Of a stretch of DNA of 64,000 nt, positions 58,560 to 64,000 are shown one piece after another. Location: contig JAKSDK010001362.1 of the NCBI GenBank assembly GCA_022360095.1, forward strand, positions 1 through 64,000. The letters are read 5' to 3'. The DNA comes from Phycisphaerales bacterium (GTDB lineage Bacteria > Planctomycetota > Phycisphaerae > UBA1845 > UTPLA1). Every line of letters starts with the position of its first letter. Position 1 is the first letter of the stretch. Both the position numbers and the translations under genes were made by a program. The notes beneath the pieces are model-generated. The model ran no database searches. It worked only from the letters and a program-made list of their open reading frames with translations, and had not been told where the DNA came from.

Positions 58560-59107
58560 AAAGCCACGCGTCTTTCGACGCCAAACGTTGTTCGCACATT
58601 GTTCAACGCAATACGTTGTCCTGCTCGCCTCGACACACATCAGGCGACATAATTTTCGGCGGCCCGATCATCGTCAACCTGAACCAAGTCGGGATGTTTA
58701 CTGCGCGAGTCTCCGTGAGACCGGGAGTACACCTCAGGGAGCACCAACAAGTAGCAGGCAACGGGCGAAGGCAACACGACAAGCGCTGCTGGGAGGTTCT
58801 CGATCGTTATGCCTGCGTCAGATTTCGACGTTCTTTTCGGCATCCCGACGATCCACGTTTAGCATCCTTTCGTTGAAGTGATCAAGTTCTCTTGTTTCCA
58901 GGCGACGTCATTGATGCGAGGCAACTCCTATGACCCTATGGTGAATGCTTGTTCAGTTTGTCGTGCGAATCGCGAGAGGGCAACGAGCCCTTCTTAAGAC
59001 GGCCTCAGCAGCTCCGGGAAAATGCGGTCGCGGGACTGTCGATAAGGTTGTCGTCCCATTTTTTGAGGTTGCCTATTTGCCTATGACCCAATAGCATGAA
59101 AGCATTC
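58560..59107. other. Gene-free region before tRNA-Met
   Basis: These 548 bases show no gene with a plausible start, and no repeats or hairpins that I can support. It could contain decayed coding sequence. Confidence 0.4.
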
Positions 59108-59180
59108 GCTGGCGTAGCTCAGTTGGCAGAGCAAGGGATTCATAAGCCCTGGGTCGCTGGTTCAAGTCCAGCCGCCAGCA
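59108..59180 (+). tRNA. tRNA-Met (anticodon CAT), elongator-type
   Basis: A 73-base cloverleaf: acceptor GCTGGCG/CGCCAGC, anticodon loop TTCATAA giving CAT, and T-arm GTTCAAG. Position 1 pairs with 72, unlike initiator tRNA. The anticodon stem AGGGA/GCCCT has an A-G mismatch next to the loop. A CAT anticodon could also be tRNA-Ile2 after lysidine modification. Confidence 0.9.
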
Positions 59181-59686
59181 GTTTCCGTTGTAACCCAATG
59201 AGATCAGGGCTCCCGGATCACGTCGCTTCAATGCGCCTGAATAAATACAGCCGTCATGATACAACTAAGAATGACAGGAAACGGAAAGGGGGGGGGATTC
59301 GATCTGCCCCGATTCCTCAACCTCTTTCGAAATCTCAGTTTATCACCCAACCTTCGCATCGACAACGATTTCACCCGTCTCGCCGATGTGCTGTTCCTCC
59401 ACGGTTTCTTACCGTCTCGTGATGCGATTTGAGGGCAATTTGAGGGCAGTTCGTTGTGGGGATGCGCTGTGTGGCAAGTTGGTGCGTTTGCCTGTCGAGA
59501 CGAATTTGGATGAACTCTGTTAGACGCGCCACAGGCCCCCGTTTGTATCAGCAACAGGAAACTTTTTAGATGGTTGTTCGGCGAAATGACAGTCTGAAGA
59601 GTTCGCCAAGACCTTGGGGGGGTATGCCAGTTACACAGCATCGAGTCGCACCGTTCATCGTTGAGGGGCGCTCACTTGATCAACGA
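59181..59686. other. Gene-free junction after tRNA-Met with an 11-bp tandem direct repeat
   Basis: These 506 bases have no convincing gene. ATTTGAGGGCA occurs twice back to back at 59427-59448, and a run of nine G lies near 59288-59296. The stretch separates tRNA-Met from a lower-GC gene block, so it is where an integration junction would be expected. No integrase is visible. Confidence 0.45.
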
Positions 59687-60505
59687 TTATTTCGTGGCAA
59701 GATACGCGATTTCCTGAGCTTTATCTGAGTCCTTGGCGCTCGGTGGAAATGCTCTGATTTTTACATCGTGGAATCCACATGCGTGAAGCATTTGCCGCAT
59801 CTCCTCATGGTCGTAGATTCGGATCGAGTAAGCTGCCTGTCTTTGTTCATCGTGGGGTCCGAGAATAGTCCACTTGCCCTCGAGGCGTTTGTTTGCGCTG
59901 TTGAAACTTTCATAGATGTTCAACTCAGCACCATCTCGCAGTGTTCGAATCGAACGATCAGCATAGGTCCCCGCTTGGATTCTCAACGGATTCACATCAG
60001 TATGGATAAGTATTTTTCCACCGGGTTTTAGGACTCGTGCTGCCTCTCGAAGTACCTGTTGATTGTCTTCCTGTGCAAGAAAAAAACCGAACGACAAGAA
60101 TAGATTCAAGACGTAGTCGTGGGTCGCATCCTCAATTGGTAATTTGCGCATATCGCCTTCGATGAATCGGCAATTCTCCAAACTCTTTTCGCGGGCTTTT
60201 TTTCTAGCTGTGTGAATGGCGGTCTTTGAAAGGTCGATGCCGGTCACCCGAAACCTCGGGCTGCTTTCTGCAATCGTCAAAGAGTGTCGCCCGATTCCGC
60301 AGGGACAATCGACGACGCGATGACCGGACAAAGGGCGGAGCATTTGCAATATTCCTCGAATTTCTCGTTTGGTGCGCTCGCTTTGATTAAGTTCCGTGTT
60401 TTCGACGTGACCCTCGAACGAGTCATCCCCGTGGTAATAAACCGACGGAAAAAAGGCATGGGCGTTTTGTGAATTCCACCAATCTTCGCTTGCTTCAATT
60501 CCCAT
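59687..60505 (-). CDS. Class I SAM-dependent methyltransferase
   Basis: A 272-residue enzyme. The SAM-binding motif I is V-V-D-C-P-C-G-I-G-R-H-S (residues about 65-76), followed by V-T-G-I-D-L-S (motif II) and E-G-D-M-R-K-L-P (motif III region). The family core is complete and a C-terminal part follows. The substrate is unknown. It overlaps the end of the transporter gene by 11 bases, so it belongs to the same operon. DNA composition is poorer in GC than most of the window. It may modify whatever the ABC system imports, but this is inference. Confidence 0.85.
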   Translation of the reverse strand: MGIEASEDWWNSQNAHAFFPSVYYHGDDSFEGHVENTELNQSERTKREIRGILQMLRPLSGHRVVDCPCGIGRHSLTIAESSPRFRVTGIDLSKTAIHTARKKAREKSLENCRFIEGDMRKLPIEDATHDYVLNLFLSFGFFLAQEDNQQVLREAARVLKPGGKILIHTDVNPLRIQAGTYADRSIRTLRDGAELNIYESFNSANKRLEGKWTILGPHDEQRQAAYSIRIYDHEEMRQMLHACGFHDVKIRAFPPSAKDSDKAQEIAYLATK

Positions 60506-62213
60506 TCAAGATCCCCGTATTTCCGCTTTCCATTCCAGCAAGACTTTTCGGGCTCGTCAACTGCTCGGAGAGCGATTTTATCAGCTCGAGCTTACCGTTG
60601 TGGATTCGCAGGATCGCATCGGCACTCGCCACGAGACGCATGTCATGTGTTGTGACAATCACGATGCGATCCCTCGCAACTGCCTTCAGCAACGCCACGA
60701 TAACGGCGCCGTGTTTTTGGTCGACGCCAGTAGTCGGTTCGTCGAGCAGAAGCAATGATGTATCAGTAATCATACTTCCTAACAGGGCCACGACTGTAGC
60801 CTGTCCTCCAGACAAGTCCGACACACGTTGTCGCCAAAAGAGGTGGGAGTATGGATTCAAGCTGGCGTCCTCAAAATAATCAGGCCCGAAGCCCAGCTGT
60901 TGGAGTTGCCGTCGAAGTGCAGTGATGACATCGCACTCGTGACGATTCTGATTAAATAAGAGCGCGGTTATCATGAAATCGCGAACCATCAAGGAGTGGC
61001 CGATCGTGAGAAATGGATTCTGGGTTACTAAAAAAATGGGTCTTCGGTGAGAGGGAATTCGATCGAGTGATTCGTGATTGAGCGCAAACGAACCGGTGTA
61101 GTTTTGAATCTGACCGCTGATTAATTTGAGTAATGTTGATTTACCGACGCCGTTTGACCCGACGAGTAACGTCAAGCCTTTTGTAAACTCCGCGCTGGCA
61201 CCATCGAAAACGACTCGATGAACCGGGCCATCGGCATATGAAAAGCAAACGTTGTGAATGTTCAGGAGATTTGCTCCGACCGGCTTACGAAACGGCGTCA
61301 ACAGGCGTCGCATCAGCTTGACGACATTTGCGTAGTCAAGCAGAGAAAGAACGAGCAATGTTGCAAGGACAATCTTCCATGATGAAGGATCGGGAGACGT
61401 GGCGAGTACTACATGGACCAGAGTGCCATAAAACAAAGCACCAAGCACGGCGCTTGCCTCTGGTGTTGTGAAAAAACTCGCCATTCGTGGCGTCGCAGCG
61501 CTACCAGATGACCCGACCACAGGAATTTCACGGCCTGCGACAATATTGCGAATCGCCTCGGTCGCACGGCGGACACAAAGAAACGCCGAAAGTGCGACCA
61601 CAAGGAATTCGAAACCACCACCAGACCTGGCGGTGCCAAGTTTGTGAACATAGATAGCACCGCCAAGTCCATAGAGCGAACCCGAAAAAACATAAGCCAT
61701 CATATACAGGACATTGGGTCCAAGGATCGGGTTGTTGACGAGAACACCGTCGCCACGTTTTCGGACTAGAATTCCAAAGTGCGTGCGATATGCGAACGTC
61801 GTTAACGCCAGGATGACCAGGGATAATAACCAAAGCCATGGTGGTGAAGCTGCGCCAGCGATTATGCCCGTGTCCGGAATACGTACGGATTCGCCGATGA
61901 GCTTCACCGAGATAGAATGGGCCGCAAGCGAGAAAACGACGCCGCACATGAGCTGTGGTACTCTTAGGCAGGCGGTCAGGGTCGCAACAAAACCAGAAAG
62001 CACGGCGCCTGAAACGGATCCCAAAATAATGGATGCAAAAGGACTTCCCGTTGCATTCGCAACCATCGCAGTGACTATGCCAGAGAGAACGACAACGCCA
62101 TCGAGTGAGACGTCAACCTCGTTCATGCGAACGAACAACAGTCCGAACCCAAGTATGATCGGAAGCCAGACGAGTCCATCACGGATCCCAAGTTGGAGTA
62201 TGTCAAGGGTCAT
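60495..62213 (-). CDS. ABC transporter permease fused to ATPase (PF04392-linked import system)
   Basis: A 572-residue fusion. Residues 1-310 form a BPD_transp_2-type permease with about nine helices (V-D-V-S-L-D-G-V-V-V-L-S-G-I-V near 33-47). Residues about 325-545 are an ABC ATPase: Walker A G-S-N-G-V-G-K-S-T, Q-loop V-T-Q-N-P, signature L-S-G-G-Q, Walker B L-L-L-L-D-E-P-T-T-G and T-T-H-D. Relatives are usually separate permease and ATPase genes beside a PF04392 binding protein, as here. The ATG at 62213 lies 43 bases after the binding-protein stop. The cargo is unknown; related systems have been proposed to carry aromatic amino acids or nucleoside-like compounds. Confidence 0.85.
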   Translation of the reverse strand: MTLDILQLGIRDGLVWLPIILGFGLLFVRMNEVDVSLDGVVVLSGIVTAMVANATGSPFASIILGSVSGAVLSGFVATLTACLRVPQLMCGVVFSLAAHSISVKLIGESVRIPDTGIIAGAASPPWLWLLSLVILALTTFAYRTHFGILVRKRGDGVLVNNPILGPNVLYMMAYVFSGSLYGLGGAIYVHKLGTARSGGGFEFLVVALSAFLCVRRATEAIRNIVAGREIPVVGSSGSAATPRMASFFTTPEASAVLGALFYGTLVHVVLATSPDPSSWKIVLATLLVLSLLDYANVVKLMRRLLTPFRKPVGANLLNIHNVCFSYADGPVHRVVFDGASAEFTKGLTLLVGSNGVGKSTLLKLISGQIQNYTGSFALNHESLDRIPSHRRPIFLVTQNPFLTIGHSLMVRDFMITALLFNQNRHECDVITALRRQLQQLGFGPDYFEDASLNPYSHLFWRQRVSDLSGGQATVVALLGSMITDTSLLLLDEPTTGVDQKHGAVIVALLKAVARDRIVIVTTHDMRLVASADAILRIHNGKLELIKSLSEQLTSPKSLAGMESGNTGILNGN

Positions 62214-62256
62214 CCGTTAGATCTCGCGCAAATTGGCTCCAAGTTTCCGATCATGT

Positions 62257-63276
62257 TCATTCGTATATCACAGCGTTTTTCAAGAATTCGGCGTCTAACG
62301 ATATGCCGCATTTCTGCAACGAAGTCTTGTTGACGTAAACGCGGGCCTCTTTCTGGGTAGTGATCGGCATCTTCGCTGGATCATCACCATTTAGGATGCG
62401 TAGGCACGTGTCGGCGGTCATCTGGCCGAGTTGACTATAACTGACCGATACGCCGATCGCAGCGCCGTTTTTGCGTACTGTTCCGTCATCCAAAGCAAAT
62501 ACGACCACCGGCTTATCTCGAAACTCATTGCAGATCTTTACAATCGCTGAGGCTTCGGTTGTTGCGGCTTTGTCATGCGGGATCACAATGCATGAACTTC
62601 CCCGGAGTAGGAGTGATTCCGTGACCGGTGCGACATCATTTGGCCCTGAAACTAATCCGGGAACCGTCTTTAACCCCTGGGATGTCAGAGCCGACTTGAG
62701 AGATAGTGCCGTGCTCTTCGAGTTGATTTCGCCTTCGTTGTACAAGATTCCGATTATTTGTTTGGTGCCGATCGCTTTGGCGATGATCTGAGCACTTTGA
62801 AGATAAATGTTGCGGTCAGGATTGTCGGAAACAATTGCGACCGCTGCTTTCCGTGGAGGAGTTAGCCCGATAGAGGTCAGTGATTCGACTTTTCTTGGAG
62901 CAGAGATGCAAGAAGCGACAACTTTGGGGAGTCGTTCTCGAAACTGGGGACCGAAAGCAGTGTTTGTGAGCTGCGTACCGATCGCGACGAGTATGTCAGG
63001 CTTAACACGCAAAGCCTGTTCGATCACGCTGTCGAACTTGCTTGGGTCGCCCTCGGCGCTAAGAACAGCTGAACTGACATTGGCATTATCGAGTTGCTTT
63101 TCGAAATCCATGCGAAACCGCTCAAAGGCATCGATAGTGACCGGAAACACGATGGCCACTTTGTGTTTGCGCTGGACCTGCGTATCCTTGTTGCAACCCG
63201 ACCCGACAGGAAACGCAACGACGAAACATGACATTATGATAGAGGCGACAGTGGTGAAATAGGCTCGACGATTCAT
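62257..63276 (-). CDS. ABC transporter substrate-binding lipoprotein (PF04392 type)
   Basis: A 339-residue protein. ATG at 63276 follows GAGGGA and opens a lipoprotein-like signal (hydrophobic residues about 8-22, lipobox V-G-S-G-C). The mature part is a two-lobe periplasmic-binding fold of the ABC_sub_bind family: V-A-I-V-F-P-V-T-I-D-A-F near 40-50, D-I-L-V-A-I-G-T-Q near 95, I-G-I-L-Y-N-E-G-E near 175 and P-V-V-V-F-A-L-D-D near 260. It would capture the ligand outside the membrane and pass it to the permease-ATPase fusion encoded next. It follows the partial upstream gene after 31 bases. Confidence 0.88.
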   Translation of the reverse strand: MNRRAYFTTVASIIMSCFVVAFPVGSGCNKDTQVQRKHKVAIVFPVTIDAFERFRMDFEKQLDNANVSSAVLSAEGDPSKFDSVIEQALRVKPDILVAIGTQLTNTAFGPQFRERLPKVVASCISAPRKVESLTSIGLTPPRKAAVAIVSDNPDRNIYLQSAQIIAKAIGTKQIIGILYNEGEINSKSTALSLKSALTSQGLKTVPGLVSGPNDVAPVTESLLLRGSSCIVIPHDKAATTEASAIVKICNEFRDKPVVVFALDDGTVRKNGAAIGVSVSYSQLGQMTADTCLRILNGDDPAKMPITTQKEARVYVNKTSLQKCGISLDAEFLKNAVIYE

Positions 63277-63307
63277 TTTTGGTCCCTCGTTCTCCAAATT
63301 CGTTGTA

Positions 63308-64000
63308 CTATTGCGGGTCGACGCACTTCCGAAGGCTGGAGAAGTCTGCGAGTGCTTTCTCGCCATCGGTTACATGAATGACAATCCCTGTGAGCGGGCG
63401 AGCTGCGTCGCCCGGTACCGTCCAATAGCAGATCAAGTCCTCCGGGCGTTTCACCAACGCAGGCTTCTTTTTAAGAAAGTAGATTTGATTTACGATCTTA
63501 AAATGGATAAATGACGTAGGGTTGTTGACTGCTTCATACGCCGGTCCAAATACTCGTTTCAAGACCTTGAGGTCCTGTGCGTAGGTCAAATATGTCTGGA
63601 GTTCGTCTACCCCGATTCCTTCCCGCTTCAAACGCTTGTGCATTTCGTCGTGGGAATTTTTTCGAGCAACGTTGTTTGCGATCCACATTCGAAGTAGGAC
63701 GTTTTTTCCGATTAGGGTCTTAATGGCGCTGTAATATGGATTCTCGTCGCCTTCAGGTTGGTAATGTGCATCGGATCGCGCGAGAAAGAACCAGCCCTCC
63801 TGGATTTTTCCACATTCGGCCAGCTTTCTTACTTCATCGGTAACGAGTTTTGCAGTTGCGTATACTTTTCCGAGCCCAGAGGTGAACGCTAAAGAGTCGT
63901 TCATTTTCAAATTGTATTTGTCTTCGAGGAGTGCACCCAAAGCATCCTCGTATCCGATGTCATATGCGTTTGCAATTTTCTGCAGTACGCCCGTGCTTGG
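63308..64000 (-). CDS. Partial gene: possible XRE-type HTH end plus unknown C-terminal domain
   Basis: The reading frame is open to the right edge of the window, so the start is missing. The first visible residues (P-S-T-G-V-L-Q-K-I-A-N-A-Y-D-I) resemble the last helices of an XRE/Cro helix-turn-helix domain. About 200 residues follow that I do not recognise, with W-F-F-L-A-R-S-D-A-H-Y and I-H-F-K-I-V-N-Q-I-Y-F-L-K-K-K. The gene is upstream of the ABC import genes on the same strand and could encode their regulator, sensing a ligand through its C-terminal domain. This is inference; the HTH match rests on about 30 residues. Confidence 0.6.
   Translation of the reverse strand, partial: PSTGVLQKIANAYDIGYEDALGALLEDKYNLKMNDSLAFTSGLGKVYATAKLVTDEVRKLAECGKIQEGWFFLARSDAHYQPEGDENPYYSAIKTLIGKNVLLRMWIANNVARKNSHDEMHKRLKREGIGVDELQTYLTYAQDLKVLKRVFGPAYEAVNNPTSFIHFKIVNQIYFLKKKPALVKRPEDLICYWTVPGDAARPLTGIVIHVTDGEKALADFSSLRKCVDPQ

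Follow-up and report, generated by a model that had tools for sequence, protein, structure and literature searches.

The far end of the DNA analysed here, a window that covers bases 1 to 64,000 of a contig of 73,661 bases, raises the question of whether the low-GC sequence that begins at a tRNA-Met gene is an acquired block carrying a complete importer and, if so, what kind of compound this importer would bring into the cell. The minus strand of the block encodes, in order, an XRE-type regulator, a PF04392 lipoprotein, a permease-ATPase fusion, and a methyltransferase (Table 1). Our preferred reading, to which we assign a probability of about 0.55, is that the block was acquired and carries a self-contained importer operon for an aromatic ligand, with the regulator and the methyltransferase acting as proposed below.

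Table 1. Features of the tRNA-Met locus and the adjoining low-GC block (window coordinates unless given as contig coordinates).
Feature	Coordinates	Strand	Basis
tRNA-Met (CAT), closing the chromosome segment of normal GC	59108-59180	+	ARAGORN
Scar: tail of a tyrosine-integrase frame and last tRNA-Ser bases (GGGGGGGATTCGA)	59242-59302	+	89% identity to C1420:781-839
Class I SAM-dependent methyltransferase, 272 aa	59687-60505	-	PF13649, 5.9e-23
Permease-ATPase fusion, 572 aa (BPD_transp_2 + ABC_tran)	60495-62213	-	Single open frame
PF04392 substrate-binding protein, probable lipoprotein	62257-63366	-	PF04392, 93.8 bits (cut-off 25.9)
XRE-type regulator, 295 aa	63308-64000 (complete on contig, 63308-64195)	-	HTH match
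Tyrosine-decarboxylase-family protein, 867 aa	contig 65602-68202 (L002:5602-8202)	-	Catalytic motifs, structure matches
Truncated AbiEii and AbiEi genes	contig 68790-69549 (L002:8790-9549)	-	N-terminal and C-terminal parts only, respectively

Composition of the block and likely traces of integration

The GC content is 57.0% ahead of tRNA-Met and 50.4% from 59181 to 64000, and every other 4820-bp segment of positions 1-59180 stays at or above 54.4%. With the best single change point of the window at 58795, the drop that had been described directly after the tRNA is borne out. Farther along the contig, GC content drops again, to about 45% from 63.5 to 69 kb, before it recovers, and the low-GC block extends to approximately position 69000. 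The four operon genes have GC3 values of 0.50-0.57, whereas 27 long, non-overlapping ORFs elsewhere in the window average 0.674 (sd 0.046); the shift is thus real and visible within codons too. The block is compositionally distinct and was probably acquired horizontally. Because the source assembly (8.5 Mb) is fragmented, with 1,918 contigs and 3.5% contamination, a chimeric join near tRNA-Met is possible, pending the reads.

The original prediction treated the block as an island linked to tRNA-Met. The same tRNA was found in 11 family members at 86-97% identity, neither of its flanks is kept in any of them, and no gene of the contig between 50 and 73.7 kb is shared with its surroundings in these genomes. 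Synteny therefore gives no verdict on insertion, and no empty site can be demonstrated. The tRNA and its 60-base 3' flank were also searched against the 73.7-kb contig, and no stretch of at least 14 bases was repeated, although the island's far boundary may fall past the contig end and so beyond the reach of this search. That part of the prediction which made tRNA-Met the integration target is therefore unsupported.

The idea of an island fared better, since a likely integrase scar lies 61 bases past tRNA-Met. In the same genome, a phage-integrase frame (PF00589) on contig C1420 runs into the 3' end of tRNA-Ser(GCT), and the scar matches this junction of integrase tail and tRNA-Ser. Only about 60 bases remain, with no full integrase gene nearby, and no similar sequence was found in other genomes of the order. 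The simplest reading is that the scar is likely the remnant of a tRNA-Ser-type integrative element lying beside tRNA-Met. The C1420 frame itself (C1420:203-928, L146) is an integrase tail that lies close to the edge of its contig and reads on into tRNA-Ser(GCT); it probably marks another integrated element in this genome.

The binding protein and its probable ligand

The predicted PF04392 binding protein, a probable lipoprotein, was confirmed by its domain score (Table 1). Translation probably begins at an inner ATG, at 63276 (MNRRAYF...), which leaves about 31 bases after the regulator stop; the resulting protein carries a signal sequence and a lipobox-like G-S-G-C site. A search of 392 genomes of the phylum yielded no close relative of it. 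The three nearest solved binding proteins are CD0873, VC_1101, and SP1069, which bind tyrosine, phenylalanine, and tryptophan, respectively (PMC6816091). The closest of these is the tyrosine-binding lipoprotein CD0873 (6HNI), which matches over nearly its full length at about 25% identity.

We placed the specificity residues named in PMC6816091 on the structure-match alignment. In CD0873, Glu-263 touches the tyrosine hydroxyl, and the tryptophan binder SP1069 has Gln-284 at the position that contacts the indole (PMC6816091). In the protein described here, Asp293 aligns with Glu-263 and Tyr310 with Tyr-279 of CD0873, so that an acidic residue and a tyrosine are kept at the specificity positions; Tyr310 also stands in place of Gln-284, the indole-contact glutamine of TrpX. 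Because Asp293 replaces Glu-263 and Tyr-279 is retained where the tryptophan binder has a glutamine, these positions appear nearer to those of the tyrosine and phenylalanine binders and favour a tyrosine- or phenylalanine-like ligand. As judged from the sequence, an aromatic amino acid or a compound closely derived from one is the most likely substrate. No characterised binder is more than about 25% identical, and the model for the TrpX equivalog, NF041285, gives 99 bits against a cut-off of 390; the ligand could therefore differ.

The nearest described operon is that of the TrpXYZ tryptophan importer of streptococci, which shares the PF04392 binding protein, the BPD_transp_2 permease, and the ABC ATPase (PMC9382623). 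The operon described here differs from it in the fusion of permease and ATPase, in a binding protein that falls far below the TrpX cut-off, in the added XRE regulator and methyltransferase, and in having no T-box; an Rfam search of the contig from 60 to 73.7 kb returned nothing. We place the transporter, as a divergent member, in the aromatic-amino-acid (TrpXYZ/CD0873) importer type.

Regulator, methyltransferase, and a model for the operon

The regulator gene is cut by the window end and was completed from the longer contig. Residues 20-81 of its product match the HTH model PF13560 at 28.7 bits, just over the cut-off of 27, and the C-terminal part outside the HTH comprises about 200 aa. This C-terminal part had no match in plasmids or phages, a search of 114 genomes of the order with the whole protein brought up no relative, and a scan of viral contigs was also without a match. 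These results uphold the description of a possible XRE-type regulator with an additional domain. A single-sequence structure prediction (mean pLDDT 41) was too poor for a fold search.

At the other end of the operon, the methyltransferase gene overlaps the fusion gene by exactly 11 bases, as had been noted. Its best NCBIfam match is the MenG/UbiE subfamily, under the cut-off, and 392 genomes of the phylum were searched for a close relative without success. The four-gene order was seen nowhere else, so no conservation backs the link between import and methylation; the coupling of import to small-molecule modification is something we infer from gene order. Of the unusual importer operon that had been proposed, the acquired-type block, the PF04392 importer, and the unusual fusion have stood, and what is missing is the same order in other genomes.

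Under our preferred reading, the horizontally acquired block would carry four co-transcribed genes that form a self-contained ABC importer operon. The TrpX/CD0873-type lipoprotein would capture a small ligand, for which an aromatic amino acid or a near derivative of one is the best candidate, and pass it to a transporter presumably made of two copies of the fused protein, each supplying one transmembrane domain and one ATPase domain. The XRE-type protein, encoded first, probably senses the ligand or the state of the host and controls the operon, and the last gene would supply a methyltransferase that probably modifies the imported compound, or a product of it, by methylation. This model draws its support from the curated cut-offs, which are passed by the predicted lipoprotein, permease, and ATPase, from the intact ATPase motifs and the permease alignment, from the kinship and specificity residues of the binding protein, from the gene order of the unfused counterparts, from the composition shift and the likely scar, and from a tyrosine-decarboxylase-family gene in the same block.

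The most credible of the alternatives, which we nevertheless consider doubtful, is an importer for a non-aromatic ligand, with the methyltransferase carried along only as a passenger through translational coupling. The breadth of the PF04392 family and the low TrpX score would allow such a ligand, but the residues that face the side chain of the ligand in CD0873 have counterparts of the same kind here. The best plasmid relative of the methyltransferase lies in a polyketide cluster, away from any PF04392 importer, as would suit a passenger, but genes that are regulated together usually show an overlap such as this one of 11 bases.

The decarboxylase gene farther along the block

Upstream of the operon, in the same low-GC block and on the same strand, lies a gene for a tyrosine-decarboxylase-family protein. 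The motifs HYS, DAAWGG, and DPHKMGY are kept, the closest solved relatives are tyrosine-decarboxylase-type enzymes, and the protein has large insertions relative to enzymes of 620 aa. A scan of viral contigs gave no match. The only relative in the order, at 43-46% identity, is in G392, a genome of the same family, where the neighbouring genes look mobile by eye (relaxase-like, HNH, and methyltransferase) and where neither a PF04392 transporter nor a related methyltransferase lies beside it. Directly after this relative, G392 encodes a 562-aa FAD-dependent oxidoreductase-like protein (L108:6855-8540), possibly forming a two-gene unit with it. A match of the C-terminus of this flavoprotein downstream of the decarboxylase described here (E 1.5) was taken as chance.

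The importer and the decarboxylase could together be one acquired pathway, in which an aromatic amino acid is taken up, decarboxylated to an amine, and methylated. The shared block and strand, the intact motifs, and the resemblance of the binding protein to aromatic-amino-acid binders point in this direction. However, 1.4 kb separates the decarboxylase and regulator genes, with a 162-aa ORF on the opposite strand in between, and because of this gap, this ORF, and the lack of such a transporter beside the G392 relative, the decarboxylase may be unrelated to the importer. Its GC3 of 0.40, far under the 0.50-0.57 of the operon genes, further suggests a separate arrival. We thus regard the single pathway as unlikely. 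Less likely again is its fuller form, a mobile aromatic-amine cassette in which the decarboxylase and the methyltransferase would work with an importer built from single-chain half-transporters and with a dedicated regulator bearing a new sensor domain, together turning an aromatic amino acid into a methylated amine.

Two other features were observed farther along the contig. The AbiEii and AbiEi remnants are apparently a decayed toxin-antitoxin pair. The second, at L002:10306-12786, encodes an 826-aa protein with tandem TPR repeats that matches an FxSxx-COOH system TPR model under the cut-off, and this gene contains 139-nt direct repeats.

The fused transporter protein

The permease and ATPase that had been read as one protein are indeed encoded in an uninterrupted frame, with both domains detected. 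Scanned alone, the permease part (residues 1-305) matches BPD_transp_2 at 32.2 bits (cut-off 26.8) and aligns end to end with three TrpY-type permeases. ABC_tran matches residues 347-495, and Walker A, LSGGQ, Walker B, and the H-loop are all present. Structure prediction from the single sequence (mean pLDDT 36) was too poor for a fold search.

The claim that such a fusion is uncommon for this transporter type also stood up to comparison. In the three unfused counterparts examined (G277, G431, and a Pseudomonas aeruginosa plasmid) the order is binding protein, permease, ATPase, and the latter two are encoded by distinct genes that adjoin or overlap each other. Searches of 392 genomes of the phylum with the fusion and with its permease part brought up no close relative; scans of plasmids with the permease and of viral contigs with the fusion gave no match, and a scan of genome contigs turned up weak hits only, almost all of which fell in the generic ATPase part. 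Our literature search found no permease-ATPase fusion in the PF04392/TrpXYZ importer type.

Among importers of branched-chain amino acids, permease-ATPase fusions do occur. Importers of the LivM-LivG type likewise have a BPD_transp_2 permease followed by an ABC ATPase in one chain, but they belong with another binding-protein family and another permease subfamily. Because the permease and ATPase genes abut in the relatives, the simplest origin for the fused gene would be the loss of a short overlap or junction between two adjoining genes.

An assembly artefact that joined two normal genes is improbable. The single, fragmented assembly and the lack of a relative carrying the fusion would be compatible with an artefact, but the 572-codon frame is uninterrupted, the error would have to fall precisely at the joint, and the joint holds an extra stretch of about 10 residues instead of an overlapping stop and start. 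The idea that the methyltransferase and the ATPase belong to a MADS-like anti-phage system, based on the matches of these adjacent genes to PADLOC mad2 (2.4e-23) and mad3 (3.7e-25), is hardly tenable and was rejected because ordinary transporter ATPases and other class I methyltransferases used as controls match mad3 and mad2 about equally well or better; no neighbouring protein specifically matches the remaining components.

Significance of the operon

The operon is a fused, regulator- and methyltransferase-equipped version of a known kind of importer, located in a probably acquired block, and it alters no general picture. If real, it would provide a natural single-chain importer of the aromatic-amino-acid type, helpful for structural work because the fusion fixes the subunit ratios. 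It would also mean that such importers travel between bacteria together with a regulator and a tailoring enzyme.
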